A stretch of DNA of 64,000 nt, taken from assembly GCF_015732185.1 (NCBI RefSeq), contig NZ_WIQM01000009.1:1-64000 (forward strand). The letters are read 5' to 3'. Numbering within the stretch: the first letter of the stretch is position 1; each line of letters begins with the position of its first letter. Shown here in pieces: positions 25,571-42,685 of the stretch. The position numbers were made by a program, and so were the translations under genes. The notes beneath the pieces were generated by a model that did no database searches, was not told the origin of the DNA, and worked only from the letters and a program-made list of their open reading frames with translations. Source of the stretch: Pectinatus haikarae (lineage in GTDB: Bacteria; Bacillota; Negativicutes; Selenomonadales; Selenomonadaceae).

Positions 25571-25849
25571 TCATAGGTCGATAGAAATCACCTTGCCCGA
25601 CGAGTAGAAAAGATTAAGTTTTGGTATAAATTCTTTGAAAGGATAAAAATTCATGAATTTTGTATTGCTGGTCAATGTTGGATGAGTCGTATGATTTTTG
25701 ATATCACCAACAGATCCTCTGGAGGTACGGTAAAAATCATAGAACTCCTTCGCAATTGGCGATGTCGCTTCAGCAGCAGTACCCGGCGTACCGCTTACAT
25801 ATACCCGCTGACCGCCTGAGAATTCGATATCACGCTGATGGGACGCATC
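25571..25849 (-). pseudogene. Fragment of a second alpha/beta hydrolase
   Basis: A minus-strand frame ending at 25571 includes GGQRVYVSGTPGTAAEATS and IAKEFYDFYRTSRG. The part EFYDFYRTSRG and the following NxTFMNFYPF-like segment align with EYADFYRTKRG and TPLSFINMPI of the intact hydrolase next door. No start and no nucleophile region remain. It is a C-terminal remnant of a paralogue, which suggests a former duplication. Confidence 0.65.
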
Positions 25850-25894
25850 TTATCTAACTCAGGCGGCTGCTCCAGGGCTCTCCTTACAACTGTT

Positions 25895-27028
25895 TTATTT
25901 CAAATGCTCTTTAAAGAACTGTTCGAATTTATCAAAGGGGATTTTCTGGACATTATCATATAAATCTGTGTGGTTCGCACCGGGAACGATATATAACTCC
26001 TTATCCTTCGAACCTATTGCCTTATAGGCATCTTCGCTGAAATAACGGGAGTGAGCTTTTTCACCCGCCACAATCAGGGCAGGAGTACGCATTTCCCTGG
26101 CATATTCCATGATGGGCATATTGATGAAGGAAAGCGGCGTGGTATTCGCCCATGAACTGTTCGGATTGGAATTTACCGAACGCGGATGATAGCCGCGTTT
26201 TGTCCGATAGAAATCAGCATATTCAGCGATAAATTTCGGCGTTTCAGGCGTAATATCTTTTTCCGGGTCCAGATTATTGGCCGGGGCTAAGGCAGCATAA
26301 TCCTGTTTTGAGCTTTCCCAGCGGGCATTATTCAGCTGCTCTTTCATCTTGTAACGTGCATCTGCACTTTGCGGTGCCACACGATCATATTGTCCTTTGG
26401 GATCCATTTTGATTTCATACCCATTCGCCATCACACGGGTCATATTATACATCGTACTGGTAGCCACCGCTTTGACGCGGGTATCCTGGATGGCATCATT
26501 CAAGGCAAAGCCACCCCAGCCGCAGATACCCAAGATGCCAATCTCGTCACGGTTTACCATATCCAGGGATCCTAAATAGTCTACAGCGGCACTGAAATCC
26601 TCCGTGTTGATATCCGGCGAGGCTGTGTTGTGCGGGTAGCCTGAACTTTCACCTGTAAACGACGGATCAAAGGCAAGGGTCACAAAGCCGCGTTCCGCTA
26701 AGGTCTGCGCATACAGCCCACTGGACTGTTCTTTCACAGCGCCGAACGGGCCGCTTACGGCAATAGCCGCTAATTTGCCTTGTGCATTTTTGGGCGCATA
26801 TAAATCCCCCGCCAGGGTGAACCCGTAACGGTTTTTGAACGTTACTTTACGGTGATCTACTTTATCAGATTGAGGAAATATTTTATCCCATTTCTGTTCC
26901 AGCTGAATGGTTTGACCCGGTACAGAAATAGATGTGGCATTTTCAGGTAAAGCAGCAAAAGCAGTTGTGGCGAGTGTCGCAACAAAAAGTGCCGCAATAG
27001 AAGTAGTTTGAATGACCTTTTTCAGCAT
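25895..27028 (-). CDS. Exported alpha/beta hydrolase (YcjY/dienelactone hydrolase-like)
   Basis: The 377-residue protein has a signal peptide ending near TTAFAALPEN (residues 20-30). The fold is alpha/beta hydrolase: LAGDLYAPKN, GFVTLAFDPSFTGESSG, a nucleophile elbow LGICGWGG with Cys169 instead of Ser, and a C-terminal catalytic-His segment VPGANHTDLYD. A Cys nucleophile occurs in this subfamily and in dienelactone hydrolase. Substrate is unknown. Fragments of two related genes flank it, so this seems to be the surviving copy of a small family. Ribosome site AAGGAGATAA. Confidence 0.85.
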   Translation of the reverse strand: MLKKVIQTTSIAALFVATLATTAFAALPENATSISVPGQTIQLEQKWDKIFPQSDKVDHRKVTFKNRYGFTLAGDLYAPKNAQGKLAAIAVSGPFGAVKEQSSGLYAQTLAERGFVTLAFDPSFTGESSGYPHNTASPDINTEDFSAAVDYLGSLDMVNRDEIGILGICGWGGFALNDAIQDTRVKAVATSTMYNMTRVMANGYEIKMDPKGQYDRVAPQSADARYKMKEQLNNARWESSKQDYAALAPANNLDPEKDITPETPKFIAEYADFYRTKRGYHPRSVNSNPNSSWANTTPLSFINMPIMEYAREMRTPALIVAGEKAHSRYFSEDAYKAIGSKDKELYIVPGANHTDLYDNVQKIPFDKFEQFFKEHLK

Positions 27029-27349: not shown

Positions 27350-27592
27350 TTAAGTAGGGCTTTTAAAAATATTATAAAATGTAACTTTTTGCCCATCTAC
27401 ATTGTTGCTCTTGTAAAAGTTGTCTGCGTCACGAAACATATCGCCTGCTGGCAGGCTCTTATTCGCTTCAATCTGAGGTTGTTCCACATGCAGTGCCGCC
27501 GAAGCAGTCCCAGCGCCACTGCTCACGATAGTAAGTGCAACTACCACCATAGCAGCTTTTGCTAATTTATGATTGAAAAACTTCATTTTCAC
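27350..27592 (-). pseudogene. N-terminal fragment of an exported hydrolase
   Basis: The 80-residue frame starts with a clear signal peptide (MKFFNHKLAKAAMVVVALTI, cleavage near GTASAAL). It continues with DADNFYKSNNVDGQKVTFYN, which matches WDKIFPQSDKVDHRKVTFKN of the intact hydrolase at 25895-27028. It stops before the catalytic domain. The ribosome site AGGAGATTG is intact, so a short exported peptide could still be made. Confidence 0.6.
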
Positions 27593-28025
27593 AATCTCCT
27601 CTTTCTTTTGTTAATTATTCTTTATTTTATGATTTATTATAATGTAGTTACTTAACTATTTAAAATACTTAAAACGAATACTTTATAATGCTTAGAAAGC
27701 ATCATTTTAACTCAAGTAACTCGTATTTCCGACTTCCCATGCCAATCATTTCGGCAGAATAAAATATAACTTAGAAACTCCTTCTGCCGGTTGACTAAAT
27801 CACAGCTTGTCTAAGCCAACAGACATTTCATATTTTTCAAAATTCATCCCGCTGATAAGTACACAAAAAATAATTCCAACTGTTATCAATACCTTCTTTC
27901 TCATTATGAACCTTCATTATAATTCTCAATATCTGTTAATCTGAAGCCGTCATCTAATACATTCTCTATATTCATAAAAGCCTTTCCGAATTTATGTTGC
28001 ACCATCTTAAAGTCTAAATTTACAT
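27593..28025 (-). other. Gene-poor stretch with two tiny coupled ORFs
   Basis: No family is recognised. Two small minus-strand frames follow the DUF4405 gene. One (27904-28005, 33 residues) starts MVQHKFGKAFMNIENVLDDG. The next (27800-27904, 34 residues) starts MRKKVLITVGIIFCVLISGM and looks like a bare signal peptide. Their stop and start overlap as TAATG. They may be remnants. The stretch also holds the palindrome at 27688. Confidence 0.3.
27688..27702. promoter_or_regulatory. Candidate LysR-type operator (site A)
   Basis: ATGCTTAGAAAGCAT is a 6-3-6 inverted repeat 96 bases before the hydrolase fragment at 27592. The same palindrome with the same following ATTTTAA occurs at 31730, upstream of a LysR gene, and an imperfect copy at 40842. 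Confidence 0.5.
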
Positions 28026-28697
28026 TTACTTCAATTTAGGATTTTTCTTAGACAACAATGATACCGCATAATGAGTTATTCCTGCATAACATCCCAAGAG
28101 TGCTGAATAATCTAAAAAAAATTTTAGCGCAGATGGAGGCGGCCCCCATCCAAAACCATGTTCCATAACTATCATGGACCAAATATGATTAGCAAAAGAT
28201 GCATAAAAACCATAAAGAATAATACCGACTGCTAAAATATTGCCCAAAATTGAACATTCTTTATGGAAACGCTCCATTCCAAGCCGATTTTGCAAGCGAA
28301 CCCATAACATCTTCCAATGAAGACCCAAATGAATTCCTATAAAAATAAAGCACACATAAGAGCTGCTTTGATGAACTTCATGAAGCCAAAGTGTATTTGT
28401 TCCCCGCAGTGCAATAAATGGCACTATTGATTGTGAAATCAATAAACCAGACAGCATTGATATACAAAAACTGATGGCAAACAAAAAATTTATTATCGCT
28501 ATCAATGCACGCTGAAAATCCTGTTTTCCTTTGAAAAAGGATGTATACCAATGCAGATTTAGGCTATTATGCCAAAGCACTAATAAAAAAAGTATTACAC
28601 CCAAAACCTCATGCGGCTTATTACCAGTAAAACGATAATTCATCACCAACAGAAAGACAATTGTCATTCCGATATTTAAAATATTTCTTTTCAACAT
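28026..28697 (-). CDS. DUF4405 membrane protein (cytochrome b561-like)
   Basis: The 223-residue protein has about five to six helices. Histidines in helices (KPHEVLGVILFLLVLWHN, LHEVHQSSSYVCFIFIGIHLGLHWKML) are placed as in heme-binding DUF4405 / b561-like proteins. It may pass electrons across the membrane. A paralogue lies at 39579-40244 in the same redox region. Between its start and the next gene upstream is a decayed stretch (28698-28924). Confidence 0.75.
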   Translation of the reverse strand: MLKRNILNIGMTIVFLLVMNYRFTGNKPHEVLGVILFLLVLWHNSLNLHWYTSFFKGKQDFQRALIAIINFLFAISFCISMLSGLLISQSIVPFIALRGTNTLWLHEVHQSSSYVCFIFIGIHLGLHWKMLWVRLQNRLGMERFHKECSILGNILAVGIILYGFYASFANHIWSMIVMEHGFGWGPPPSALKFFLDYSALLGCYAGITHYAVSLLSKKNPKLK

Positions 28698-28924
28698 TTT
28701 GCTCCTAAAAAGATTAAATAATTTTCTTTACTTCATGGGCTTTTTGTAATATAGGGCTGGTATTAATCCCTGCTTCCTGTGTTAAACCCATATCTGTCAG
28801 AACTCCTTTAAGTTCAGGTTCCCTAAATAGCCTCCATCAGACTTCAAGCCCATATAATTTATCATCGACGGCACATTCATAGAATCAGCTGCTGCAACTG
28901 GCAAATACATCCCATTAAAAATTT
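28698..28924 (-). other. Decayed coding remnant
   Basis: A short minus-strand frame (28797-28910) reads MYLPVAAADSMNVPSMINYM and onwards to a stop; an adjoining frame reads MGLTQEAGINTSPILQKAHE. Together they look like the C-terminal end of some larger protein with a frame break. No family was recognised with confidence. Confidence 0.3.
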
Positions 28925-30157
28925 TTATTGTCCAAAGTAATTTTCTATTTCCTGCATGCGATCTTCGATATTAACATGAAATGGGCACCGTGGTTCACAT
29001 TCGCCGCAACGCGCACAATCACGAGCTGTACGATTCAATTTAAAATAATGATCCTTTGCTAAGGCATCACCGGATTTTGCAAGATCATAATATTTACTGA
29101 CAGAGGCAATATCTATGCCATATGGACATGGCTGGCAATGGTCACAATATATGCATACACCTTCCATATCCTGTTTACTCGCCGCAAAAACAGCTGAATA
29201 ATCGCGCTCCTCGCGTGACGTGTTGTAAAAAGCCAGCGCTGCGTTGATGTCAGACATATTCCGCACACCAGGTATGCAGGATATTACTGCAGGACGATCC
29301 AGGGCATACTGAATGCATTGTGCCGTTGTCATGGCTTTGCCAAAAGGTGAACTGCTATCCGACAAAAGCCGTCCGCCACCATAAACCTTCATGACCGTAA
29401 TTACTGCGCCGCGTTTTTGTGCTTCCTCATAAAGATTCTTGCGATCAGCAGCCAGTTTCAACACACCATTCTCTGGTACGAAATCGTAAGCCGGATTTAG
29501 ACTAAACATAAAGACATCAATCAAGCCTGTCTCAAGAAATTTTTTACTGATATCTACAGAATGCGAAGAAAACCCAATATAGCGGATGGTGCCATCCTTT
29601 TTTAATTTTTGTGCATAATCTAAAAGTCCATTATCTATAACTTTCTGAAAATCTTCTGCTGTATCAACATAATGGATCATCCCTATATCACTATAATCAG
29701 TACCAAATCCCTTAAGCTGCTGCTCAAAACCGCTCTGAACCTGCTTCATATCGCGCGTTCTTGTATATGTTTCATTTGGATAATAAACACCAATATGCAT
29801 TTGCGTAAGCATTTTGTCACGTCGACCTTTGATCCCCGCAGCCATTGCCTCCGACGGGCCAAAATTTGACATTACAGTATCCATGAGATTAATGCCATGC
29901 TCTGCTGCATAGGCAATCATGCGTTCGATATTTTTTGCTGAAGATTCATGAAGCGCACTTGCCCCAATAGCAAGCGTACTGATTTTTTCTCCTGAATGTG
30001 GAATTTGCCTATATTCAACAGTTCCGCTGAATTCAAAAGCATCAGCCTCTTGTTTTTGCTCTTCTTTCGTTGTAAACGGATCTTCAAAATCGCAGCCGCC
30101 AAGCATCAGACCTATAGCACCTAGTCCCAGTCCTCGTATAAAGCTCCTTCTTCTCAC
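28925..30157 (-). CDS. Tat-exported aldo/keto reductase with ferredoxin domain
   Basis: The 410-residue protein starts MRRRSFIRGLGLGAIGLMLGGC: a twin-arginine motif plus a lipobox-like LGGC, so Tat export and lipid anchoring are likely. The middle is an aldo/keto reductase TIM barrel (GASALHESSAKNIERMIAYA, RYIGFSSHSVDISKKFLETG). The C-terminal domain has two cysteine sets: CIYCDHCQPCPYGIDI and CARCGECEPRCPF. The fusion is known in Firmicutes and Bacteroidetes as an AKR with 4Fe-4S domain. The substrate is unknown. A paralogue without signal lies at 33024-34172. Confidence 0.85.
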   Translation of the reverse strand: MRRRSFIRGLGLGAIGLMLGGCDFEDPFTTKEEQKQEADAFEFSGTVEYRQIPHSGEKISTLAIGASALHESSAKNIERMIAYAAEHGINLMDTVMSNFGPSEAMAAGIKGRRDKMLTQMHIGVYYPNETYTRTRDMKQVQSGFEQQLKGFGTDYSDIGMIHYVDTAEDFQKVIDNGLLDYAQKLKKDGTIRYIGFSSHSVDISKKFLETGLIDVFMFSLNPAYDFVPENGVLKLAADRKNLYEEAQKRGAVITVMKVYGGGRLLSDSSSPFGKAMTTAQCIQYALDRPAVISCIPGVRNMSDINAALAFYNTSREERDYSAVFAASKQDMEGVCIYCDHCQPCPYGIDIASVSKYYDLAKSGDALAKDHYFKLNRTARDCARCGECEPRCPFHVNIEDRMQEIENYFGQ

Positions 30158-30369
30158 TTATTCCATCTCCCAATATAAATAGAAACTCACTTAATACCTT
30201 ATAAAGGCCACTTGCACATCGCCTTTTCCCACAGACTCTTTCAATCCGTCAACGTCTGCAATATAATCTATCCTTACATAGCCGCTATAAGAATTACTGC
30301 ACGTCGTATAAAAAGGTACTAAATAATTACTGGACCAATGCCTTTCTTTCATACAAACTCAAAATTCGT
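30158..30369 (-). other. Remnant of an unidentified gene end
   Basis: A minus-strand frame with SGYVRIDYIADVDGLKE, GKGDVQVAFIRY and a stop near 30194 has no start. It may be the end of a cyclophilin-like or flavin protein, but this is not certain. Confidence 0.25.
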
Positions 30370-31608
30370 CTACAAGACAGTATTCTTTTTCTTTTTTTTC
30401 AGTATAATCCCTGGACTTGACTCCAATTCAAGTACTTTTTTCAAATTTAAACTATTTTTTTCTGTCAAACAGTTAATCTGAGCAAAAATTACTAATCCTG
30501 CAAGCGCAATAAAAGACAGTCCAACAAGAACAACATAAGGAGTACCCCATTCTGCAATAAATATTCCACCGGTGACAGTTCCCAAAGTTGTCCCTAAATT
30601 TGCCGAAGTCAAAAAAACCCCATTAGCCAAATCTGGAGCCTCAGGTGCTGCATGAGAAATCCAATACTGCGTGACATTTGCATTGATACCACCTAAAAGG
30701 CCCCAGAGAATCGTTAGTATTATCATTGGTATCAGGAACTGCCCTCCCAGAAATAACAAACTATACATGCCAAACAAAGTAATTATAAAAAAACGAACCG
30801 TATGCAAAGCGTTACGGGTAAGCAATTCCCCTGCCAGCATGCTGCCAAAAATATTCATCGCACCATAAATAAATAACATTACACTCGCTGTCGATAAAGA
30901 TACCGTTGTGACACGCTCCAAATACTCTGCCAGATAATTAAATACACCAAAGACAGCTCCATTCATAAGAATGACCGCTAAAATTGATATCAGCAGCATC
31001 GGTTTTTTCAATACACTGATCTGTGATCCATAGGATAACCGCTGTTTCACCGGCATTGAAGGAACAAAAATCAGTGTCACCAAAAATACAAAAACGTTAA
31101 TAAATGCAAAAAAACTTAATGCCATTTTCAAAGAAAATGCTCCTGCAATAAAATTACTGATTGGCACACCGATAACCATTCCAGCAGACACGCCAATCAC
31201 AATCTTCGTTACAGCTTTCGGTGCCAACTCCGGTTTCACAGATGCCGCTGCTACGCTAAAGGCCAAAGAACAGTATATTGGATGAAAAAAGGCCGGGATG
31301 ACTCTAGCAATTAATAAAATTGTAAAATTTGGTGCGAAAATTGATACAATATTTCCCAAAATAAAAATACCTAAAACCATCAACATAACCAATTTTCTAT
31401 TAATACCGGAAAACAGCAGGGGCATTGTCGGACCGGCAATTGCAACTCCCAGCGCGAACAAACTCACGAGAGTTCCAGCCTCCATGATACTGACATCAAA
31501 CTGCGAAGCAATAAATGGCAAGATACCGACAAACCCCATCTCCGTATTTAGGATACCAAATACACCAACCGCCAAAATATAAACCAACATATTATTTTTT
31601 TTTAACAT
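30370..31608 (-). CDS. MFS transporter, AraJ/YdhP-like
   Basis: The start MLKKNNMLVYILAVGVFGIL follows GGGGAGTG. The 412-residue permease has 12 helices and the early motif NTEMGFVGILPFIASQFDVS typical of the arabinose-efflux (AraJ) / chloramphenicol-resistance branch of MFS exporters. It is divergent from the LysR gene at 31785, with a palindrome in the 176-base gap, so LysR control is likely. Substrate unknown. The C-terminus is lysine-rich (KKKKKN). Confidence 0.9.
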   Translation of the reverse strand: MLKKNNMLVYILAVGVFGILNTEMGFVGILPFIASQFDVSIMEAGTLVSLFALGVAIAGPTMPLLFSGINRKLVMLMVLGIFILGNIVSIFAPNFTILLIARVIPAFFHPIYCSLAFSVAAASVKPELAPKAVTKIVIGVSAGMVIGVPISNFIAGAFSLKMALSFFAFINVFVFLVTLIFVPSMPVKQRLSYGSQISVLKKPMLLISILAVILMNGAVFGVFNYLAEYLERVTTVSLSTASVMLFIYGAMNIFGSMLAGELLTRNALHTVRFFIITLFGMYSLLFLGGQFLIPMIILTILWGLLGGINANVTQYWISHAAPEAPDLANGVFLTSANLGTTLGTVTGGIFIAEWGTPYVVLVGLSFIALAGLVIFAQINCLTEKNSLNLKKVLELESSPGIILKKKKKNTVL

Positions 31609-31729
31609 AACACTCCCCATTCCGCAAACAATTAAAAAAATTTCAAGCTCCTTCGTCTATATATCTCCTTATGTTTCATTATAAAATCACTCTGGTATGA
31701 TAACAAATGCCTATATTAAATGATAATTT

Positions 31730-31744
31730 ATGCTTCAAAAGCAT
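31730..31744. promoter_or_regulatory. Candidate LysR-type operator (site B)
   Basis: ATGCTTCAAAAGCAT, a 6-3-6 inverted repeat, lies 41 bases before the LysR start and in the gap to the divergent MFS gene. Flanks (ATTTTAA on the right) match site A at 27688. Confidence 0.55.
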
Positions 31745-31784
31745 TATTTTAAATGTTATACTACAAATAAAACAGGTGTTAATC

Positions 31785-32678
31785 ATGGAATTTAGAGTTT
31801 TATCCTATTTTTTAACCGTTGCTAAGGAAGAAAATATCTCCAAGGCTGCCGAGGCCCTCCATATTACTCAACCGACGTTATCCCGTCAACTTTCTGAACT
31901 TGAAGAAGAATTGGGCGTGCAGCTGCTTAACCGTGGCAAACGAAAAACTACTCTCACAGATGCAGGGCTTCTGCTACGTAAACGTGCTGAAGAAATCACC
32001 TCATTGACAGAGAAAACAAAACGGGAATTTCGCCAGTCAGATGCAATAGTTAATGGTGACATATACATTGGCTGCGGTGAAACGAACGCTATGCATCGTA
32101 TGGCCCTGACCGCTAAAAAGCTCCAGACTGATTACCCGCATATACGCTATCACCTATTCAGCGCAAAAGCGGATGATGTAACCGAACGGTTAGATAAAGG
32201 ATTACTTGATTTTGGCCTGCTCATTGAACCAGCCAACATCCGAAAATATCATTCTTTCGAACTACCAGATACTGATTTTTGGGGACTGCTGATGCGCAGG
32301 GATTCTTCGTTGTGCTGCAAGACACGAATTACTCCACACGATCTCTGGGATATTCCATTGCTGATTTCTCAACAATCACTGGATACCCATGAACTTTACC
32401 ATTGGCTGCAAAAAGAACAAGGGGAACTAAATATTATTTCCACTTACAACTTGATTTTCAATGCTTCACTCATGGTAGAAGCTGGACTTGGTTATGCGTT
32501 ATGTTTGGATAAACTAGTCCATACCGGACCAGATAGTTTATTACGTTTCCGCCCGCTACAACCGCAGCTTCCTGCACATGTTTATTTGATCTGGAAAAAA
32601 CAACAACTTTTCTCCAAAGCAGCCGCATTATTTCTCGATAAACTGAAAGAACAAATTGATATACATTTAAGAAATTGA
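31785..32678 (+). CDS. LysR-family regulator
   Basis: The start MEFRVLSYFLTVAKEENISK follows ACAGGTG; this is a standard LysR N-terminus, and the upstream extension is rejected. The 297-residue protein has the winged helix (EALHITQPTLSRQLSELEEELGVQL) and a substrate-binding domain. A near paralogue is at 36173-37063. It probably controls the divergent MFS gene and its own. Confidence 0.93.
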   Translation: MEFRVLSYFLTVAKEENISKAAEALHITQPTLSRQLSELEEELGVQLLNRGKRKTTLTDAGLLLRKRAEEITSLTEKTKREFRQSDAIVNGDIYIGCGETNAMHRMALTAKKLQTDYPHIRYHLFSAKADDVTERLDKGLLDFGLLIEPANIRKYHSFELPDTDFWGLLMRRDSSLCCKTRITPHDLWDIPLLISQQSLDTHELYHWLQKEQGELNIISTYNLIFNASLMVEAGLGYALCLDKLVHTGPDSLLRFRPLQPQLPAHVYLIWKKQQLFSKAAALFLDKLKEQIDIHLRN

Positions 32679-33023
32679 TTACCATTTTTTCGATTATATA
32701 ACCCAGCTACCAGAATTTCATGAACACTCGAGTAACTAATTTATTATATTGTTGATTTGAAGATTTCATTAATGCATTATTGTCAAGATTTTTATCGTAA
32801 TATACTATCCATTTTTAACTGAATAACATTTCACAGAAAAATTAATATCTATTTAACATAAAGGTCCAATGTCTGTTATTTCGAAACAGGCATTGGACCT
32901 TTATTATAGAATGATATTTCTTAAATATGGCACGAATAAAAAATCAGCTTTAGCAAAGCACTAAGCATGATAATATTTGCCCAGGCTCATCCTAGTCAAT
33001 GTAATTGAATGATTTTCTACCGC
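32679..33023. other. Intergenic stretch with a terminator
   Basis: No gene is seen. It carries the terminator at 32860-32903 between the convergent LysR and aldo/keto reductase genes. A partial match to the ATGCTT palindrome on the minus strand (near 32952-32967) may be a relic operator. Confidence 0.5.
32860..32903. terminator. Bidirectional terminator
   Basis: AAAGGTCCAATG (32860-32871) pairs perfectly with CATTGGACCTTT (32891-32902). A/T runs flank both sides. Confidence 0.85.
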
Positions 33024-34172
33024 TCATTTTTTAAAGACCTCTTTCGCTCGCATCATATTCTGCCGCACTGGAACATGAAATGGACAGCGCTTCTCACAAG
33101 CACCGCAGTCAATGCATTCAAAAGCTGTATGTTTCAAGATGGCATAATGTTCACGCACAGTTTCTGGTATTTTTTCTTGCGCTTCAGCAAGATTGAGAAG
33201 TTTAGTGACCATAGCAACGTCAATACCTTTCGGACAAGGTGCGCAGTGACCGCAGTACATGCAGTGTCCTTTCCAATTGATTCGCGGGAAAGAAGTAAAG
33301 GCTGCTGCATAATCTTTTTCCTCCATAGAAGCGGTCTCATAGTGTACACTTATTTCTAATTCCTCTACAGTATGCGCTCCTGCTAAAACTGTTGCTACTG
33401 CCGGGCGTGTTAAAGCGTAGTGAAGGCACTGAACCGGAGCAAGTGCCATGCCCGCAGGAGACAATTTTGCATTTAAAAGATCACCACCGCCAAATGCTTT
33501 CATGACAGTAATGCCGACGCCACGGCGTTGACAGACTTCATAAAGTTTTTCTCGATCTGGATTCATATTGAGCAGCGACTTCTCGTAGCTTTTTCCGTTC
33601 CAAAGATCATCGCAATCCTCACTGGCCGGCTGAAGATCATAACAGGGGTTAATACTAAACATCAGCACGTCAATAAGTCCGCTTTCCACTGCCTCCAGAG
33701 CGACAATAGGATTATGGCTGCTAAGACCAAGATGACGTATTTTACCTGCTGCTTGCAATTCCTTCGCATACCGTATAATTGGACCGTTGGCAACCTGCCG
33801 CCAGTCATCAAGCGAATCTACATAATGGACCATGCCGACTTCTACTGAATCAATATTCAGGCGCCACAGCATATCCTCAAAACTCGGCCTAACTTCATCA
33901 ATTTTACGTGTACGCTCATACTGCCCATTTTTCCAAACTGCGCAAAGATGTACCTGCAAAATAAATTTATTTCTCCTACCGGCAAGTGCCTGCCCCAGCC
34001 GGCTGCGCCAAACAGGATTTGGTGCGTAGAAATCAATATAATTAACGCCCACCCGTTCCGCAGTATCTAAAAAATCATCCATATATACACCGTTATGATC
34101 AATAAGACCTTCGCATCCAATACCAATTTCACTTACCTTAAGACCCGTTTGTCCAAGTTCACGATACTGCAT
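33024..34172 (-). CDS. Cytosolic aldo/keto reductase with ferredoxin domain
   Basis: The 382-residue protein has the AKR barrel (MQYRELGQTGLKVSEIGIG, IRHLGLSSHNPIVALEAVESG, VTVMKAFGGGDLL-like GITVMKAFGGGDLLNAK). The C-terminal cluster domain has CMYCGHCAPCPKGIDV and CIDCGACEKRCPFHV. It has no signal peptide, unlike the relative at 28925. The start follows TAGGAGGAA. A promoter with TTGACT and a long 19-base spacer may lie at about 34205-34260. Substrate unknown. Confidence 0.88.
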   Translation of the reverse strand: MQYRELGQTGLKVSEIGIGCEGLIDHNGVYMDDFLDTAERVGVNYIDFYAPNPVWRSRLGQALAGRRNKFILQVHLCAVWKNGQYERTRKIDEVRPSFEDMLWRLNIDSVEVGMVHYVDSLDDWRQVANGPIIRYAKELQAAGKIRHLGLSSHNPIVALEAVESGLIDVLMFSINPCYDLQPASEDCDDLWNGKSYEKSLLNMNPDREKLYEVCQRRGVGITVMKAFGGGDLLNAKLSPAGMALAPVQCLHYALTRPAVATVLAGAHTVEELEISVHYETASMEEKDYAAAFTSFPRINWKGHCMYCGHCAPCPKGIDVAMVTKLLNLAEAQEKIPETVREHYAILKHTAFECIDCGACEKRCPFHVPVRQNMMRAKEVFKK

Positions 34173-34558
34173 TCCATGATTTCCTCCTATTTAGGCTTAA
34201 AATATTGTCACTTATTTTCTTATTATCGTACTCTATGGTCCAGACTCAAAGTCAAGTTGAATTTTTTAAAGAAAAAATTTTCCTGAACCATATTCACCTC
34301 GACTCAATTTAAAGTGTTAAACTCTAAGTGAATACAAATCATTTTCTGTTCTTAAATAAAAGAAAAATTATTTATAAATTGGAATGACAATTCCTTATCA
34401 CGTCGTCTGCGCTTGCGATGCTCATAGTGCACTATCTACTTATAATGATATTGTTTTGGCATCAACATAATTGATATACCCATCAGGCATAAAAATCATC
34501 GTTACATAAAGCCTTTACCGCAGTTCCCTATGCTTTTCGTATTTCTTACGAGACCTAC
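34173..34558. other. Intergenic stretch
   Basis: It includes the upstream region of the aldo/keto reductase and about 200 bases of decayed sequence before the flavodoxin stop. A minus-strand frame there reads MPDGYINYVDAKTISL and ends; no family is recognised. Confidence 0.3.
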
Positions 34559-35035
34559 CTATTTTATCCCGTTTTTCTTTAACCAAGCTTCGACATCGCT
34601 GTCTTTAACTGAGCTGCCATAACTGGAGAACATGGAAAGTACCGTCGATTTTTTACAGGCCAGCTTTACATTTTTCTCAATATAGCCGGAGCCCCCACCG
34701 CCATGTGTGCAGAATGGAATAACTGTCTTGCTCGCTAAATCATATTCTGCAAGGAAGGTGGCAATAGGTGGTGCCATGGTACTCCACCAATTCGGAGTGC
34801 CCACGAAAACGCTGTCAAAGTCAGCAATGTTCTTAATTTTTGTCTTAAGCGGCGGGTGGTATCCAGCTTCAATTTCCTTTTTTGCCTGATCTACAACCGC
34901 AGTGTAATCACCTGGATAAGCTCTTTCCGGTTCTAATTCGTAGAGCATACCAGCGGTTTTTGCTGAAATCAGCTTTGCAAGCTTACGCGTGTTGGAAGAA
35001 TGCGAATAGTAAACAATCAAAATTTTTCTACTCAT
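34559..35035 (-). CDS. Flavodoxin
   Basis: The start MSRKILIVYYSHSSNTRKLA is set by GAGAGGAA. The 158-residue protein has the FMN phosphate loop YYSHSSNTRKLA, a TPNWWSTMAPPIATFL loop and FCTHGGGGSGY, as in flavodoxin-4 type (long-loop) proteins. It is the last gene in a run with a tautomerase and a flavin reductase, so it may be an electron carrier for that set. Confidence 0.88.
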   Translation of the reverse strand: MSRKILIVYYSHSSNTRKLAKLISAKTAGMLYELEPERAYPGDYTAVVDQAKKEIEAGYHPPLKTKIKNIADFDSVFVGTPNWWSTMAPPIATFLAEYDLASKTVIPFCTHGGGGSGYIEKNVKLACKKSTVLSMFSSYGSSVKDSDVEAWLKKNGIK

Positions 35036-35064
35036 TTTTAAAATTCCTCTCATTATAAATTGAT

Positions 35065-35619
35065 TTATACTTTATACTGATCAGCAAAACTCACGCACAT
35101 ACCTAAAACAGCACCTGTCTTAACATACTCATAGGTCGGCATTTCAAAGAGAACTGGTTTTAAAACGTGATAATCAATTTTCCCTTCCTCATTCAGAATA
35201 GATTCTTCTGCATAGGTGTGTTCTATTTTCAACACAAAACTTTCGAATCCTTCTGTATCATAAACATCAACAACACTGCATTCCATCGTAAGCGGAGATG
35301 CATTCACAAGTGGTGCACCCAATTCACCAATGGAATGAGCAAATACTGTAGATTTATCAACCTTGCTGCCACTTACTTTACCAACATACGATGCCTCAGA
35401 CAGCAATTTTTCATTTACAATATTTACTGAGAGAACTTTATTTTCCTTAATGCCTTTATTTGTATAATGAGGTTTTGCCAGACTTACCATAATTCGATCA
35501 TGACCGATAATACCGACATGTCCGGCAATCAGCCAGTTGGGTTTATCTTGCACCATTGCACCTATAATCACCAACGGTGTTGGGTATAATCCTAAAACTG
35601 AACCAATATCTTTTTTCAT
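35065..35619 (-). CDS. Flavin reductase-like FMN-binding protein
   Basis: The 184-residue protein has a split-barrel flavin reductase fold: LYPTPLVIIGAMVQDKPNWL near the start, MVSLAKPHYTNKGIKENKVLSVNIV and ASYVGKVSG. Such proteins bind FMN and use NAD(P)H or a partner. It lies between a tautomerase and a flavodoxin, all in one direction with short gaps, so they form an operon under the MerR-type promoter at 35909. Confidence 0.85.
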   Translation of the reverse strand: MKKDIGSVLGLYPTPLVIIGAMVQDKPNWLIAGHVGIIGHDRIMVSLAKPHYTNKGIKENKVLSVNIVNEKLLSEASYVGKVSGSKVDKSTVFAHSIGELGAPLVNASPLTMECSVVDVYDTEGFESFVLKIEHTYAEESILNEEGKIDYHVLKPVLFEMPTYEYVKTGAVLGMCVSFADQYKV

Positions 35620-35662
35620 ATGAAAATTCTCCTATATATTTTTTTAAATGTAAGTGTATATT

Positions 35663-35875
35663 CTACATATTATCTGAGGTTCTTTTCTTTGCAATATCTG
35701 TAAGCGTTCTACCGCCAATTCCCCAATTATCCGCATAATTTTCTTTAATGAGCACATAAAATCCTGACGCTGGAATTCCTAATATTTTGCTCGCATCTTG
35801 CGTGATATCTGCAATAAGCTGTTTTTTCTGTTCGGTACTCACATGAGGACCTGCTTCTATCTGAATATATGGCAT
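35663..35875 (-). CDS. 4-oxalocrotonate tautomerase-like protein
   Basis: Starting at MPYIQIEAGPHVSTEQKKQL, so that Pro is residue 1 after Met removal, gives a 70-residue protein of normal family size. Pro1 is the catalytic base of this family. A ribosome site (GAGAGGATG) lies before it. The tail IGGRTLTDIAKKRT is typical. First gene of the operon with flavin reductase and flavodoxin. Confidence 0.88.
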   Translation of the reverse strand: MPYIQIEAGPHVSTEQKKQLIADITQDASKILGIPASGFYVLIKENYADNWGIGGRTLTDIAKKRTSDNM

Positions 35876-35908
35876 AAAAATCATCCTCTCTACTTTAAAT
35901 TTGATATT

Positions 35909-35939
35909 ATTATAAAACCTGAAGTCAGCTTAAGGTCAA
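35909..35939 (-). promoter_or_regulatory. MerR-type promoter with 19-base spacer
   Basis: On the minus strand TTGACC (35934-35939) and TATAAT (35909-35914) are 19 bases apart. The spacer holds the near-palindrome ACCTTAAG-CTGA-CTTCAGGT. Long spacers with a dyad between -35 and -10 are the hallmark of MerR-family activation. A MerR-like gene lies at 37090-37443. Confidence 0.75.
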
Positions 35940-36172
35940 TACCATTTTTCTTTAAATATAATAATTTATTTATCACTAAGCTTGTTTTTTGTATGAAAAA
36001 GGGCACGTAATTTTTTAGTACACATCTGTTTATTAACCAAAATAAAGTAGCAGTATCTTCTTTTATTTCAGTTTATCATATTTATGTATTCTTTAAATCT
36101 ATACTGTTAACGATAAGCACTGTTCTCTGTTTTTCCCAATATAGCGAAAGTTTCAAAATGCAGTATCGCTTA

Positions 36173-37063
36173 CTATTCACTTGTTTGTTGCGCATTATCT
36201 TTACATGTGTGACAATATCCCAAAAAAATACGGGCTGCCTTGGAAAGGGCTTGTTGCTTTTTCCAAGCAAGAACTGCACCCACAGCTCCAATTCCCTTTA
36301 GCGGTATGAATCGCAGTCCTGGAGTCATCTGCTGATGAAAATCATAGCAAATTGCAACACCCAGCCCGCTCCTCACCATATAAACCGTATTTAACAAAAG
36401 ATTATATGTCGCGACTTGATGAAGATTCTCGTACGTCTCACCAAACCAATGTTTCAGATGGGATTGTACCGATATACGTTCTGGCAAAATCAAAGGTACT
36501 TCCAAAAGATCGTCCGGATGTATATTTTCTTTTTCTGCTAATGCACTACTTTCCCGAACCAGAATCCCCCACCGCTCCAGCAATGGCATACGCAGGACTT
36601 CATATTTCATAACATCCACCGGTTCCATCAGCAGCCCAATATCCACCAGACCATTTTCAATTTGTTCTTGGACGACATCTGCCGTCTTACTTTGCACCCG
36701 GAACGTAATCAATGGATACTGCCTATGAAACTCCGCCATCCAAGCAGCCAGCACTGCCATATTCTGTGTATCACCACACCCGATGCGGATGTCTCCAGCC
36801 AACGTTCTACTGCCGATAAACTCCTGCTTCATTTTCTCTGCAAGATCCAGAATATCCTGTGCATGACGGCGTAACAATAAGCCATCCTCGGTTAGCCTGA
36901 CATAATGACTATACCGTTCCAAAAGCTTAACATTTAGTTCCTCCTCCAAGGCACGAATCTGCCTGGACAGGGTTGGCTGCGTCATATGCAGCAGATTCGC
37001 TGCCTTGGTAATATTCTCTTCTCTGGCTACTGTCAAAAAATAGTGCAAAACGCGAAGTTCCAA
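36173..37063 (-). CDS. LysR-family regulator
   Basis: The 296-residue protein starts MELRVLHYFLTVAREENITK and has the LysR winged helix (NLLHMTQPTLSRQIRALEEELNVKLLERY) and a substrate-binding domain. It is close to the LysR at 31785 (same FLTVA-EENI start). It follows the MerR-like gene by 26 bases, so it could be the last gene of a long minus-strand run. Its stop is followed by 288 bases without a gene. Confidence 0.93.
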   Translation of the reverse strand: MELRVLHYFLTVAREENITKAANLLHMTQPTLSRQIRALEEELNVKLLERYSHYVRLTEDGLLLRRHAQDILDLAEKMKQEFIGSRTLAGDIRIGCGDTQNMAVLAAWMAEFHRQYPLITFRVQSKTADVVQEQIENGLVDIGLLMEPVDVMKYEVLRMPLLERWGILVRESSALAEKENIHPDDLLEVPLILPERISVQSHLKHWFGETYENLHQVATYNLLLNTVYMVRSGLGVAICYDFHQQMTPGLRFIPLKGIGAVGAVLAWKKQQALSKAARIFLGYCHTCKDNAQQTSE

Positions 37064-37089
37064 GACAATCCCCCCTTTCGCTTTGGTGG

Positions 37090-37443
37090 TTACCCTTTCG
37101 TATCATCCAAGTCTTTTTTCATCTCATATTTCAAATAATCTATACGGGATATCATCTGTTCTTTCTTATGGATTTCTTCCAGCATATCATTTCGCTTTTC
37201 GTTCAGCAAATCCATACAATGACAGTATTTGCTGTCCTTTTTCATTTTCATATAGCTCATAATTTCGTCCCAAGAAAATCCGAAGTCTAATAAGCTCATG
37301 ATAAAGCTCAGTTCCTTAAGTGCATAATCATCATATATGGTTGCAGCTCCTTCTGACTGTACTTTAGCGATTGAACTGCTTTCGTATTTTTTTAGCACCT
37401 CAAAAGGAATGCTGTACTTTTTATGAACTGCTTCGCGATTCAT
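37090..37443 (-). CDS. MerR-like regulator
   Basis: The start MNREAVHKKYSIPFEVLKKY is set by GGTGGTG. The 117-residue protein has a MerR-type winged helix (IPFEVLKKYESS...YDDYALKELSFIMSLLDFGFSWDEIMSYMKM) and a coiled coil ending KYEMKKDLDD. The family normally twists DNA at promoters with 19-base spacers. One such promoter is seen at 35909. A CHC pair in the coiled-coil region (YCHCMDLL) could be a sensor, but this is a guess. Confidence 0.75.
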   Translation of the reverse strand: MNREAVHKKYSIPFEVLKKYESSSIAKVQSEGAATIYDDYALKELSFIMSLLDFGFSWDEIMSYMKMKKDSKYCHCMDLLNEKRNDMLEEIHKKEQMISRIDYLKYEMKKDLDDTKG

Positions 37444-37471
37444 AATTACACCACCTTTATTTTGTAATGTA

Positions 37472-38152
37472 TCAAAGATTTGCGCCAATTTTATATGCCT
37501 GATCGCCGAATTCAGATCTTTCTACCAGAGAACGAGCACCGCATCCAATTCCCAAAACCTTCCCAACATCATTCCATTCCATATATCGCACCAGGGTATC
37601 ATAATGATCAACCAACGCACTCATCGTCCAATCGGCACTATTATAGGCAGTTGCCATCAATACAGATTTCTTGCCATGAAGTTTTCCTGTACGGGAGTAG
37701 AAGCGGTCTACTATAGTTTTAAGCTGTGCAGACATGCCGAAATAGTACAGCGGTGTTACCAATACCAATAAATCCGCATCCAGTATTTTGGGCATAAGTG
37801 TCTGTTCGATGGCATCCGACCAGATACAAGGTCCATCCATATGACACTTGTCACAGCCGCGACAGGGATGCGTTTCTTCATTAGCCGCATCAAAGGTGAA
37901 TACTTCATGTCCGGCACTTTTTGCACCTTCCGTGAATTTCTCCGATAAATAAATCGATGTAGATTCATTTTTCGGATGCGGGCTGCTATTAATGACTACA
38001 ATTTTCATATTCTTACCTCCTGATACGCTTCCTTTTTCCGGGATTTTACTTTTGTTCTCCGTTTCTCCAGCCAGTGCAGACAGTCCACAGCCGCTCAAAA
38101 AGAGCGTCAATGTGCCCATGCCGCTGACTTTCAGGAACTCCCGTCTGTTCAT
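37472..38152 (-). CDS. NADPH-dependent FMN reductase-like flavoprotein with Tat leader
   Basis: The 226-residue frame starts MNRREFLKVSGMGTLTLFLSGCGL, a twin-arginine signal with lipobox LSGC. After a linker, a complete flavoprotein begins at MKIVVINSSPHPKNESTS with CRGCDKCHMDGPCIWSDA and VLVTPLYYFGMSAQLKTIVDRFY. In front of that Met (ATG at 38008) is a perfect ribosome site, AGGAGGTAAGA (38011-38021). So two products may be made, an exported and a cytosolic one. It lies in a run of redox genes ahead of the MerR-like gene. Confidence 0.85.
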   Translation of the reverse strand: MNRREFLKVSGMGTLTLFLSGCGLSALAGETENKSKIPEKGSVSGGKNMKIVVINSSPHPKNESTSIYLSEKFTEGAKSAGHEVFTFDAANEETHPCRGCDKCHMDGPCIWSDAIEQTLMPKILDADLLVLVTPLYYFGMSAQLKTIVDRFYSRTGKLHGKKSVLMATAYNSADWTMSALVDHYDTLVRYMEWNDVGKVLGIGCGARSLVERSEFGDQAYKIGANL

Positions 38153-38166
38153 ACAACCCCTCCCGT

Positions 38167-38673
38167 CTACTCCTTAGAAATAACCTCAACTTTTGCATCG
38201 AAATCACCGTTCATTCCAGCCAGATCTTCAAGCCCACTGATGAAATGCCCCATGGGGATAAGTCCCTTGGAATATCTGAAGTCTTTATAAAAAACAGAGA
38301 TATTGCCCCACGGACCATAAACCGCCAGATCACCTGGCTTTGGCACAAATCCGTCCGGAGCATTTTCTTTCGACAGCGACTTCGGTGGATCAGCGATTTT
38401 TTCCGTTTCATTATAATCCTTGAAGTGAAGCGTCATTGGCATAGATTGGCGAAAATCCCGGCTGGTCGAGTTGTCTTCCAATTCTGCGATTGATTCCTTG
38501 CCATCAAAGGTAAATTTTACACGAACCTGCTTGGATTCCTTTGATTGCAACATCGTCTCATGTTCCTTTATGGTCTCGGCCTGTACATCTTCCCTGCTTC
38601 CATAGGCAGCTCCGACAACAGCAACAACGAATAAGAAGCCAATCCCTAAAAAGCACATCTTCTTCATGTTCAT
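38167..38673 (-). CDS. Cyclophilin-like fold protein, exported
   Basis: The 168-residue protein has an N-terminal hydrophobic signal (CFLGIGFLFVVAVVGAAYG) and a domain with VRVKFTFDGKESIAELEDN, GDLAVYGPWGNISVFYKDFRYSKGLIPMGHF and GLEDLAGMNGDFDAKVEV. This is the pattern of the 'cyclophilin-like' (DUF369-like) family found beside flavodoxins. Biochemical role unknown. Same operon-like run as the Tat flavoprotein (14 bases away). Confidence 0.75.
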   Translation of the reverse strand: MNMKKMCFLGIGFLFVVAVVGAAYGSREDVQAETIKEHETMLQSKESKQVRVKFTFDGKESIAELEDNSTSRDFRQSMPMTLHFKDYNETEKIADPPKSLSKENAPDGFVPKPGDLAVYGPWGNISVFYKDFRYSKGLIPMGHFISGLEDLAGMNGDFDAKVEVISKE

Positions 38674-38687
38674 AATTCTGGTCTCCT

Positions 38688-38867
38688 TTACTTTTTTTGC
38701 CAGCTCTGCTCAACAATTTCCTGTGACATGCGAGCATAATCTTCTTGAGAAACATTATTTTGTTTTGCTATACAAGCCAGACAAAGCCAAGAATAAAATA
38801 AAACAGTGACTGTTACTACCGCGAAAATACTGATTAATTTACTTTTCATCTCCATCGCCCAATTCAT
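38688..38867 (-). CDS. Small single-helix membrane protein
   Basis: The start MNWAMEMKSKLISIFAVVTV overlaps the stop of the lipoprotein flavodoxin as ATGA (38864-38867), which argues for translational coupling. The 59-residue product has one membrane helix (about 11-32, with CLAC near its end) and a charged tail. No family recognised. It lies between two exported redox proteins and may be an accessory subunit. Confidence 0.55.
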   Translation of the reverse strand: MNWAMEMKSKLISIFAVVTVTVLFYSWLCLACIAKQNNVSQEDYARMSQEIVEQSWQKK

Positions 38868-39517
38868 TTGCCTGATTGGATATGATGACTTGAAAACCAC
38901 TGCTCCAGTTCCTGTTTGGAGGTGTCTTTCGAGAAACGTTTGCCATCTACCCAGTCGGCAGAGGCAGAGCACAGATTATGAAGCGCGTCTGCACTAGAGC
39001 CTATATCGCTGCTGGCTGATGTGCAAAGCGGTATGATTTTCTTATCCGAAAAATCATAGCTTTCCAAGAAAGTATCAATAATACGCGGTGCCTGTCCCCA
39101 CCAAATCGGGTAAGCAATTACGATTGTATCGTATTTTTCAAAAGAAGATATCTTCCCGTTAATGGCCGGGCGTGTACTGTTATCCTTCTGTTCCACTGTG
39201 GCACGCGTAGACTCATCATTATAGTTTAGATCTTCACTGGTATATTTTTTCTCTGGTACGATTTCATAAAGGTCTGCTTTGAGAACATCAGCTGTATTCT
39301 CTGCCAATGTTTTTGTATTGCCCGTACAGGAAAAATATACGACCAGTATTTTACTGTTTCCATCTGCCTTTTGCTCTTCTGCTTCCGGTGCAGATTTTTC
39401 TGCCACTCCATTTTGTGACTGCGGCGGGGAAGATGTCGTTGCCTCAGTACTGCCACATGCGGTAAGTGTCAACATCATACATACGGATAATAAGAAGAGT
39501 GTCACAAATTTTTTCAT
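38864..39517 (-). CDS. Flavodoxin lipoprotein
   Basis: The start MKKFVTLFLLSVCMMLTLTAC follows AAAGGGGAAA; the lipobox LTAC gives a lipid anchor. After an E/A-rich linker the flavodoxin-4 domain has VVYFSCTGNTKTLAENTADVL, AYPIWWGQAPRIIDTFLESYD and LCTSASSDIGSSADALHN. It would work on the outer face of the inner membrane. The gene is coupled to the small membrane protein gene behind it. Confidence 0.88.
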   Translation of the reverse strand: MKKFVTLFLLSVCMMLTLTACGSTEATTSSPPQSQNGVAEKSAPEAEEQKADGNSKILVVYFSCTGNTKTLAENTADVLKADLYEIVPEKKYTSEDLNYNDESTRATVEQKDNSTRPAINGKISSFEKYDTIVIAYPIWWGQAPRIIDTFLESYDFSDKKIIPLCTSASSDIGSSADALHNLCSASADWVDGKRFSKDTSKQELEQWFSSHHIQSGK

Positions 39518-39578
39518 CTCAATTTCCCCTTTCTTTAGTACAAAATTCAACTTTGATTCAATCGTCCATGCTATGTTT

Positions 39579-40244
39579 TTACAAATGTCTTGTACTCCTT
39601 TTGATCATAAAACCCACTACAGCATACAAGCCAATGATACTCAGAAGCATCAATATGAACATCCCGAAAGAAGCCTTCGTTGCTGCCGTGGCAAAGATAT
39701 GCTTCAGCTGTAACCGATCGCCAATCTGATTCATAAAAGAACCATAGATGCCGCCGGCAATCAACAGGGCCAGCATAAAATAGCATCCAACCCGATATTT
39801 CAACGATTGCAGATTCCAATGATTCCAGTTCGTAAAACGATGCCATAAAGGCGGCCAATGCAATCCCAGATGAAGTCCAATCAAAACGAGAAGAAAATAA
39901 GGCAAGGAAACATGCAATTGATGGACCATTATGTTTCTTTGCAAGTATATTCCAAAAATTTCCTTGAACAAATGATTCGAGATCATCATGCCTGTCGCTA
40001 TAATACTTACCGCATTAATAATCAACAGGCAGTTAATCATTACAGACAAACTTCGTATGAAATACCACTTTCCTCTAAATAGCGAGGAAAACCATAGACG
40101 ATTCCCAATAAGATGAAAAACGATTGCCAACAGCATAAGGATACCTAACACCTCATGCAGTATTTTAGGCAAAAATTGGAAACTGATTATTAAAAGGAAC
40201 AGCACCAGCAAAACAATGTCTAGGAAAATCTGTTTCATATACAA
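39579..40244 (-). CDS. DUF4405 membrane protein (cytochrome b561-like)
   Basis: The 221-residue protein has about five helices and helix histidines (ILHEVLGILMLLAIVFHLIGNRLW, MVHQLHVSLPYFLLVLIGLHLGLHWPPLWHRF). It is a paralogue of the protein at 28026-28697. It precedes the flavodoxin lipoprotein by 61 bases. A plausible electron entry point for the exported flavodoxins, by inference. Confidence 0.75.
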   Translation of the reverse strand: MYMKQIFLDIVLLVLFLLIISFQFLPKILHEVLGILMLLAIVFHLIGNRLWFSSLFRGKWYFIRSLSVMINCLLIINAVSIIATGMMISNHLFKEIFGIYLQRNIMVHQLHVSLPYFLLVLIGLHLGLHWPPLWHRFTNWNHWNLQSLKYRVGCYFMLALLIAGGIYGSFMNQIGDRLQLKHIFATAATKASFGMFILMLLSIIGLYAVVGFMIKRSTRHL

Positions 40245-40293
40245 TTATTCCATCCTTTCCTAACAATAATGACCTATAGGAAGGATCTCCGCT

Positions 40294-40740
40294 TTACTTT
40301 TCTTCATAGACCTCTTTTGCCATACGAAATGCTGCCCAGGCTTTCGGCCAGCCTGCATAAAAACCAAGCTGCGTAAGCATCTCTACCATTTCATCTTTGG
40401 TCACGCCATTCTGTTTTGCTGTCTGGATATGGTATTTCAGTGAACTGTCCGTGACACCGCTTCCTATTAATGCGGATATCGTAATTAAACTACGGTCATG
40501 AAGTGAGAGCTTGTCATTGCGTGACCACACTTCACCAAACAGGATATCATCATTATATCGTGCAAAATCTGGAGCAAAATCTCCTAATACATCGTGTCCT
40601 GCCGTTTGTACAATCTTCTTTGCTGCTGGTTTTGTTGTTTCTTTTTCATTATTTGCCATATTTGCTGCCTCCACGCTTAAAAAATTTGTCATTATAATCC
40701 CTGTTGTCAAACCTAACACAATTAACTTTTTCCATGCCAT
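40294..40740 (-). CDS. Exported carboxymuconolactone decarboxylase-family protein
   Basis: The start MAWKKLIVLGLTTGIIMTNF follows GAGGAGGGG. The 148-residue protein has a signal peptide (cleavage near VEAANMA) and a CMD domain: WSRNDKLSLHDRSLITISALIGSG, LKYHIQTAKQNGVTKDEMVEML, GWPKAWAAF. The alkylhydroperoxidase CxxC pair is absent; a Glu/His arrangement of CMD type fits better. It is the first gene of an eight-gene minus-strand run down to 36173. Confidence 0.85.
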   Translation of the reverse strand: MAWKKLIVLGLTTGIIMTNFLSVEAANMANNEKETTKPAAKKIVQTAGHDVLGDFAPDFARYNDDILFGEVWSRNDKLSLHDRSLITISALIGSGVTDSSLKYHIQTAKQNGVTKDEMVEMLTQLGFYAGWPKAWAAFRMAKEVYEEK

Positions 40741-41342
40741 TGCAATCCCCTCCTCAAACAGTAGCTGAATTAATTTCATCTATTGTTTTATTGTAAGTTG
40801 TAAAAACAAATTAAGCCAATGCTTAAAAATATGTACCGTCGATGCTTAAAAGGCATTTCATTTTTTGTTTTAAAAAAATTTTGATATTCTCCTACAATCT
40901 GCTCCTATGGCAAACATTTTTTTACAAAAGTTATCAAATTGATCCTGCATGCTCAATGCACCTTTTTCCTTCAGTAAGAAACCGCTGTCCGTATTGCCCA
41001 TATTAATTTTTCATCCGCAGAAAATCGTTATTTTTTCTCTATAAAAACAGTTTTATTTCTCCAGATCTGCTTTTGCTGTAAAAATAGTAATAATCATCGC
41101 TATTGCCACAACCATGCCGTATCCGATAGAAATTTCATAGTATTCGCTGTTTCAAGTTGATCCAATGCAATAGAGAAACTAAAAGCTTGATAATTCTCAT
41201 AAATCCCACCTTCCTCTATATAACTAAAACAATTAAAACTTGCCGTTTTGGTAAATTGAATCAAAATTTAATGTTAAATAAAAATAAACCACATCAAAAT
41301 TACCAATTAATTGGAAATCTTGATATAGTTTATTTTTACTAC
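40741..41342 (-). other. Upstream region with remnants
   Basis: No complete known gene. A 43-residue minus-strand frame (40870-41001) contains KEKGALSMQDQFDNFCKKMF and is not recognised. A frame ending at 41053 (to about 41150) reads YYEISIGYGMVVAIAMIITI and ends in TAKADLEK, like the last helix of a transporter whose main part is lost. The palindrome at 40842 lies here. Confidence 0.35.
40842..40856. promoter_or_regulatory. Candidate LysR-type operator (site C)
   Basis: ATGCTTAAAAGGCAT is an imperfect copy of the palindromes at 27688 and 31730, 102 bases before the CMD gene. A half copy (ATGCTTAAAAATATGT) lies 24 bases away at about 40819. Confidence 0.45.
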
Positions 41343-42346: not shown

Positions 42347-42685
42347 ATGGAAAAAACATTACCTGACTGCCCTGTAGAAACGACATTGATGTTAATCAGT
42401 GATAAATGGAAATTATTAATAATAAGAGATCTGTTGGATGGTAAAAAAAGGTTTGGCGAATTAAAAAAATCGGTTGGAAAAATATCGCAGAAAATTTTGA
42501 CAGCTGATTTAAGATCAATGGAAAAAGATGGCCTGCTCAGCAGAAAGGTTTTTGCAGAAATGCCCCCACGTGTTGAATATACACTGACTCCGGCGGGACT
42601 TAGTCTAAAATCAGTGATTGAGGCAATGAGCAACTGGGGGCAATACTATCAAAAAAATCTATCAGCAAATAAATCTGGAAAATAG
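42347..42685 (+). CDS. HxlR-family regulator
   Basis: The 112-residue protein has the HxlR winged helix: CPVETTLMLISDKWKLLIIRDLLDGKKRFGELKKSVGKISQKILTADLR, then PPRVEYTLTPAGLSLKSVIEAM. The Cys near the N-terminus (CPVE) is the redox or electrophile-sensing position of this family. Ribosome site AAGGAGCACGG. No obvious target is adjacent; the neighbour on the far side is convergent. Confidence 0.92.
   Translation: MEKTLPDCPVETTLMLISDKWKLLIIRDLLDGKKRFGELKKSVGKISQKILTADLRSMEKDGLLSRKVFAEMPPRVEYTLTPAGLSLKSVIEAMSNWGQYYQKNLSANKSGK

Follow-up and report, generated by a model that had tools for sequence, protein, structure and literature searches.

The solved DNA-binding domains nearest to the LysR-type regulator considered here are those of CatM and BenM. 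According to the parts of PMC6628147 that deal with the benA and catB promoters, site 1 of these regulators is a palindrome, ATAC-N7-GTAT, set within T-N11-A, site 2 overlaps the -35 element, and in response to effectors the tetramer leaves sites 1 and 3 for sites 1 and 2. For DntR, a 2016 paper describes one site of high affinity at about -65 along with weaker ones at about -10 and -35, and in its treatment of the weaker (activation) sites states that no conserved motif had yet been deduced for them (PMC4730206). VirR is described as having a footprinted site pair in which T-N11-A occurs in the upstream site only (PMC11724031). Here, we consider a palindrome, ATGCTT-N3-AAGCAT, that recurs in a redox gene island of Pectinatus haikarae, within the first 64,000 nt of contig NZ_WIQM01000009.1 (assembly GCF_015732185.1, forward strand; hereafter, the window). 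With a probability of about 0.88, its three copies are predicted high-affinity recognition sites of LysR-type controlled promoters that follow a fixed-spacing design.

Two copies, at 27688-27702 and 31730-31744, are perfect, as an earlier note on this DNA had stated, and the one at 40842-40856, which it had called imperfect, indeed departs by one mismatch. The left arm of the latter reads ATGCCT on the minus strand, a normal variant that four of the 26 distinct layout sites share, 40842 among them. All three copies open the same layout on the minus strand, in which the palindrome (box 1) is followed by 8 nt, a second box, a -35 element abutting this box, 17 nt and a -10 element. Counted from palindrome base 0, box 1 occupies offsets 0-14, box 2 offsets 23-37, the -35 offsets 38-43 and the -10 offsets 61-66. 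The consensus of box 1 is ATGCYT-N3-AAGCAT and that of box 2, which ends in ARGYAT, is AT-N7-ARGYAT. At the promoter directed at a major facilitator (MFS) gene, the first box (31730-31744) and the second (31707-31721, beginning 23 bp after the first) both have T-N11-A, and the -35 TTGTTA and -10 TATAAT span 31678-31706. The second promoter likewise has T-N11-A in its first (27688-27702) and second box (27665-27679), followed by TTTAAA and TATAAT (27636-27664). At the third promoter, the first box (40842-40856, ATGCCT-N3-AAGCAT) has T-N11-A, while the second (40819-40833) keeps the right half AAGCAT with a degenerate left end lacking T-N11-A; the -35 region TGGCTT is poor (a promoter scan favours TTGGCT with 18 nt) and the -10 is TACAAT (40790-40818).

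The three promoters thus have the anatomy of LysR-type control, with a T-N11-A box in a palindrome upstream of the -35 at every site and, judged by sequence alone, a weaker second site at the -35 region, complete at 31730 and 27688 and reduced to its right half at 40842. The 31730 site also lies between two divergent genes, 41-55 bp ahead of the start of lysR1 (31785-32678, plus strand) on one side, with the MFS gene (30370-31620, minus strand), its predicted target, on the other. LysR1 matches Pfam HTH_1 at its N-terminus and LysR_substrate at its C-terminus, both above cut-off, as does its paralogue LysR2 (see below). As described for BenM/CatM site 1, the first box is a palindrome with T-N11-A, and the pyrimidine-N5-purine pattern inside the arms is present in the first boxes of the window, too. 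The half site is ATGC here versus ATAC there, the recognition helix QPTLSRQ versus QPPLSRQ, the targets differ, and no third box was found at these promoters, whereas BenM/CatM have a third site. If transcription starts ~7 nt past the -10, as we infer, the box centres fall at ~-66 and ~-43, which resembles the sites near -65 and -35 of the general recognition/activation model as outlined for DntR. Different from the DntR account, a conserved sequence can be clearly read in the second box here, and its phase is fixed.

The full layout is unique in the genome. A search pattern of 25 specified bases, with up to three mismatches allowed, found three places in the whole genome, each of which lies in the window and fits with 0 mismatches, and the reversed control found none. 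By itself, the palindrome is weak evidence for a regulon and suggestive only. Perfect copies are in excess over the expectation from base composition, both in the window (2 seen, 0.007 expected) and in the 3.11 Mb genome (5 seen, 0.34 expected), and with up to one mismatch the palindrome occurs at 22 places genome-wide as opposed to 2 for the reversed pattern. With up to three mismatches, no excess exists in the window (51 seen, shuffle mean 62.4). Besides, only two of the five perfect copies in the genome fall in the window; of the other three, two are within long open frames and one, at positions 114007-114021 of contig C13 (L003), is intergenic with the promoter layout missing. We therefore dropped the palindrome count as proof. 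A genome-wide count had been proposed as a check on the motif, which was to fall if equally frequent at random places; the palindrome alone comes half-way to that outcome, but the full promoter layout does not. Similarly, the ATTTTAA flank noted at 27688 and 31730 is truly common to both, yet carries no weight and was dropped as part of the motif, since none of the upstream flank columns rises to 0.6 bit across the 26 distinct layout sites.

The design recurs in relatives. In a family set of 151 genomes, our own included, a pattern made of the two boxes alone matched 29 places in 22 genomes, with the reversed control matching in none of the 151. Of these places, 26 are outside the window, and a -10, which the pattern did not specify, stood at an identical offset in 20 of them and one base later in five; the remaining match (L017), the only one without such a -10, lies inside a gene and was dropped. 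Removal of 11 of the 25 outside rows as near-duplicates left 14 distinct promoters, from which a matrix was built for the sole test of the window that used outside sites only. This matrix ranked precisely the three layout sites first (31730, 55.8; 27688, 48.1; 40842, 19.8), with the next-best position at 8.7. Twenty of the 26 outside places lie within 2.3 kb of a LysR1 homologue (E value 1e-40); as to the other six, two (L031, L038) are less than 1.4 kb from a contig end, one (L019) adjoins a partial lysR, one is the coding match L017 and two (L037, L043) have no LysR match nearby. The genes behind the family sites include MFS genes, the same secreted hydrolase as here, CMD, DUF4405 and MerR/FMN-reductase runs. 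Looser forms of the site were sought solely in 20 longer stretches, picked because they had a LysR or layout match, where they adjoin further LysR1 homologues (e.g. L078, L079, L080, L082, L084 and L088); the later matrix used for these stretches, as well as for the GTDB loci and plasmid records, includes the three window sites.

Beyond the family, searching GTDB genomes with LysR1 turned up 25 loci (Lachnospiraceae, Enterococcus, Paenibacillus, one Christensenellaceae member and others), many of which belong to one Lachnospiraceae group. Within 700 bp upstream of the gene, scores above 20 were reached at 16 of 23 loci, and the top score among 4,600 random sequences with similar dinucleotide composition was 11.0 (200 per locus; here and in the spacing test, first-order Markov samples rather than exact shuffles). 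L113 and L122 were left out of the 23 for having no gene start, although L113 does contain a site. Eighteen plasmid records matched LysR1 at an E value of 1e-40, and in all eight examined (from Selenomonas ruminantium, Priestia megaterium (two), Peribacillus muralis, Niallia taxi, Enterococcus gilvus, Listeria innocua and Treponema saccharophilum) the layout stands just upstream of lysR and is directed away from this gene, with scores of 27.7-46.0. The S. ruminantium plasmid has the same divergent lysR-MFS pair and a second site (score 50.6) before a hydrolase gene. The plasmid gene table is incomplete, the N. taxi record being unannotated, and within it annotated neighbours on five plasmids include an alpha/beta hydrolase, a cyclophilin-like protein, an MFS protein, a flavodoxin family protein or an aldo/keto reductase. 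Differing neighbours are sugar-uptake genes in Peribacillus and, in L. innocua, an acetyltransferase-like gene (related to DapH/DapD/GlmU).

The spacing of the boxes was examined at 31 loci (GTDB and plasmid), choosing the block of box 2, -35 and -10 first and then sliding box 1 from -25 to +8. The block scored above 12 in 28 of the 31 loci and in 1.7% of 3,100 random sequences, and box 1 landed at exact spacing in 26 of the 28 loci, as opposed to 103 of the 3,100 random sequences. Positions 0, 1, 13 and 14 of box 1, unused in choosing the block, are A, T, A and T in 28/28, while none of the columns 16-22 and 45-60 rises above 0.7 bit. This exact spacing and the invariant A, T, A, T, next to unconserved intervening columns, point to selection acting on the predicted sites and not just to relatedness of the DNA, although many of the GTDB loci come from a single Lachnospiraceae group.

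Rigid layout, genome-wide uniqueness and conservation beside LysR1 homologues, all of which are read directly from the letters, make LysR-type control of these promoters a well-supported prediction. What we infer beyond this concerns binding, activation, the tetramer, the operon and the inducer. By analogy with BenM and DntR, the first box would be occupied by one of the two dimers in a LysR tetramer, and inducer binding would move the other dimer onto the second box, thereby freeing or supporting the -35. The 31730 site is predicted to serve the MFS gene and probably lysR1 itself as well; as this site overlaps the likely lysR1 promoter, self-repression would be expected. Further predicted targets are a secreted alpha/beta hydrolase, whose gene is broken here with an intact copy behind, and a run from CMD over flavodoxin, FMN reductase and a MerR-like gene to lysR2. 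The latter run is a predicted operon of eight genes (36173-40779, minus strand, gaps of at most 50 nt), which in order from the 40842 promoter encode CMD, DUF4405, flavodoxin, a small open reading frame, a cyclophilin-like protein, FMN reductase, the MerR-like protein and LysR2. The 27688 promoter is directed at the open reading frame 27350-27592 (minus strand), an N-terminal remnant of the hydrolase gene as identified by tblastn with relatives' hydrolases, and the intact gene (25895-27028, minus strand) is a possible downstream target. The placement of the palindrome upstream of a redox or a LysR gene, as claimed before, accordingly holds for 31730 (lysR1, with the MFS gene on the other side) and 40842 (the CMD/flavodoxin run), whereas 27688 stands before the broken hydrolase gene. 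From this gene set, one may guess that the inducer is an electrophile or aromatic compound and that the regulon has a role in handling such compounds.

Several observations weigh against such control. The 40842 site is clearly the weakest (19.8 vs 48.1 and 55.8, the best chance position being 8.7), its box 2 is missing the left AT that is otherwise conserved, and it has a poor -35. Within the family, the strict layout occurs in only 21 of the 94 genomes with a LysR1 match at an E value of 1e-40 and is missing from the other 73, while one genome (G087) has the strict layout yet no LysR1 match at this threshold, and near the LysR1 homologue of another (G021, L090) no site scores above 20. Moreover, 7 of the 23 GTDB upstream regions score 20 or less: L117 and L118 reach 17-18, the site of L112 lies ~900 bp upstream, and L106, L114, L116 and L121 are without a site.

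The chances are evenly balanced for a variant of LysR-type control in which the regulon is split, with LysR1 acting at 31730 and 27688 and LysR2 at 40842, where it would regulate itself, cross-binding being possible. LysR2 (36173-37063, minus strand) is 45% identical to LysR1, and since the eight-gene run behind 40842 ends in this paralogous gene, either protein might act there. In a tree of 60 homologues, LysR1 and members from the family form a group of 15 with support of 98/91, and several of these members have their sites before hydrolase or MFS genes. LysR2 is joined (support 99/90) to a LysR of G036 whose gene directly precedes a layout site, behind which comes a run with MerR-like and FMN-reductase genes. 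This grouping favours the split, although it unites two long branches and was flagged by the tree program as possibly false. Also in favour, in the stretches read, the LysR proteins near sites before CMD, MerR and flavodoxin genes are ~39-42% identical to LysR1 (L086, L092, L094, L095), and those near sites before hydrolase or MFS genes ~48% or more. On the other hand, both clades adjoin the same operator and share the QPTLSRQ helix, so that these letters assign neither protein to 40842. Of the earlier proposal, a small regulon of the LysR at 31785, the LysR-type regulon stands by virtue of layout, genome-wide uniqueness and cross-genome footprinting; action of this very protein at all three sites is less certain, given the paralogue at 36173-37063 (above all for 40842), and the target of 27688 had been misread. 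It is highly unlikely that the palindrome belongs to another regulator of the island, be it the HxlR-type protein (42347) or the MerR-like protein (37090): their genes do lie in or beside the island, but the layout precedes lysR in stretches from Priestia, L. innocua, Enterococcus, Selenomonas and Treponema that list no HxlR or MerR gene (within the incomplete plasmid gene table), and T-N11-A is a LysR-type signature. Even less probable, and rejected, are chance palindromes or terminator stems, which could account for the surplus of perfect 6-3-6 inverted repeats of any sequence in the window (28 vs 15.6 expected naively) and for the three of five perfect copies outside it, but not for the unique layout, its fixed spacing, its conservation across genomes and the absence of all three sites from the terminator list.

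Returning to LysR-type control, this is very probably a regulon of a known kind that lacks a name, its anatomy being that of ordinary LysR-type regulation. We call it unnamed since searches of an open-access library gave nothing on this regulon and none of the family models considered reached its cut-off. Among the best 25 of 52 matched NCBIfam models each, none named LysR1 or LysR2 above cut-off. The best model for both was CidR, with which they share the LysR-type architecture (140 bits for LysR1 and 143.5 for LysR2; equivalog cut-off 415); LysR1 scored 82.1 bits against OxyR (equivalog cut-off 329), and 61.4 (cut-off 600) and 73.8 bits (cut-off 580) against the BenM/CatM models. By family model, the predicted LysR-type regulon is thus not that of BenM, CatM, CidR or OxyR.

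A wider and rather doubtful idea is that of an unnamed LysR subfamily, spread over Negativicutes, Clostridia, Bacilli and a spirochaete plasmid, which would share one rigid design and a readable activation motif, and whose half-site letter would follow residue 31 of the recognition helix. Helix QPPLSRQ pairs with ATAC (once ATAT) in 14/14 sites compared, nearly all from one Lachnospiraceae group, and QPTLSRQ with ATGC in 19 of 24, or in 10 of 15 when sites picked by the ATGC pattern or by the finding itself are set aside; QPTLSKQ (L127, L129) pairs with odd boxes. BenM/CatM (QPPLSRQ, ATAC) are an outside case that fits. The comparison omitted L106, L112, L114, L116 and L121 and covers few lineages, and we regard the residue-31 pattern as a lead, not a result. 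If true, a single amino-acid substitution should be able to retune the operator, and sequence would give access to the second LysR site, usually vague and here clear. Apart from this idea, a LysR subfamily named by no family model gains a defined predicted operator and a set of likely targets (alpha/beta hydrolase, MFS, cyclophilin-like protein, flavodoxin, aldo/keto reductase, CMD), whereas knowledge of how LysR proteins work is unchanged.

As to the remaining genes, a second hydrolase piece (~25646-25858) contains a stop, two fragments flank the intact copy at 25895-27028, and the decayed gene keeps a well-preserved operator and promoter. In the structure bank, the intact hydrolase closely matches Pseudomonas aeruginosa PA2218 (2hdw, solved; E value 4e-120) and also matches YcjY (1e-43). 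The best named family models for the MFS protein lie far below cut-off, and the MerR-like protein has no Pfam match and a weak NCBIfam match. The HxlR-type regulator (42347-42685) marks the island edge and has homologues of 71% and 69% identity in the LysR-site stretches of G140 (L081) and G036 (L083), respectively. The island also encodes two aldo/keto reductases (28925-30157 and 33024-34172), both of which have a C-terminal 4Fe-4S ferredoxin-type domain and no LysR layout upstream. The island looks accessory within the genus, because four same-genus genomes have no LysR1 match (E value 1e-40), no CMD match (E value 1e-20) and no strict layout. The genome also encodes LpxC (E value 1.1e-90), from which the host is probably diderm. 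Finally, variant sites in G113 and G010 (L089:5774-5840, L097:10161-10227) have a long inverted repeat, AAGCATTTCA-CA-TGAAATGCTT, across the -35 region, possibly a repressing arrangement, and both stretches also hold LysR genes that group with LysR2.

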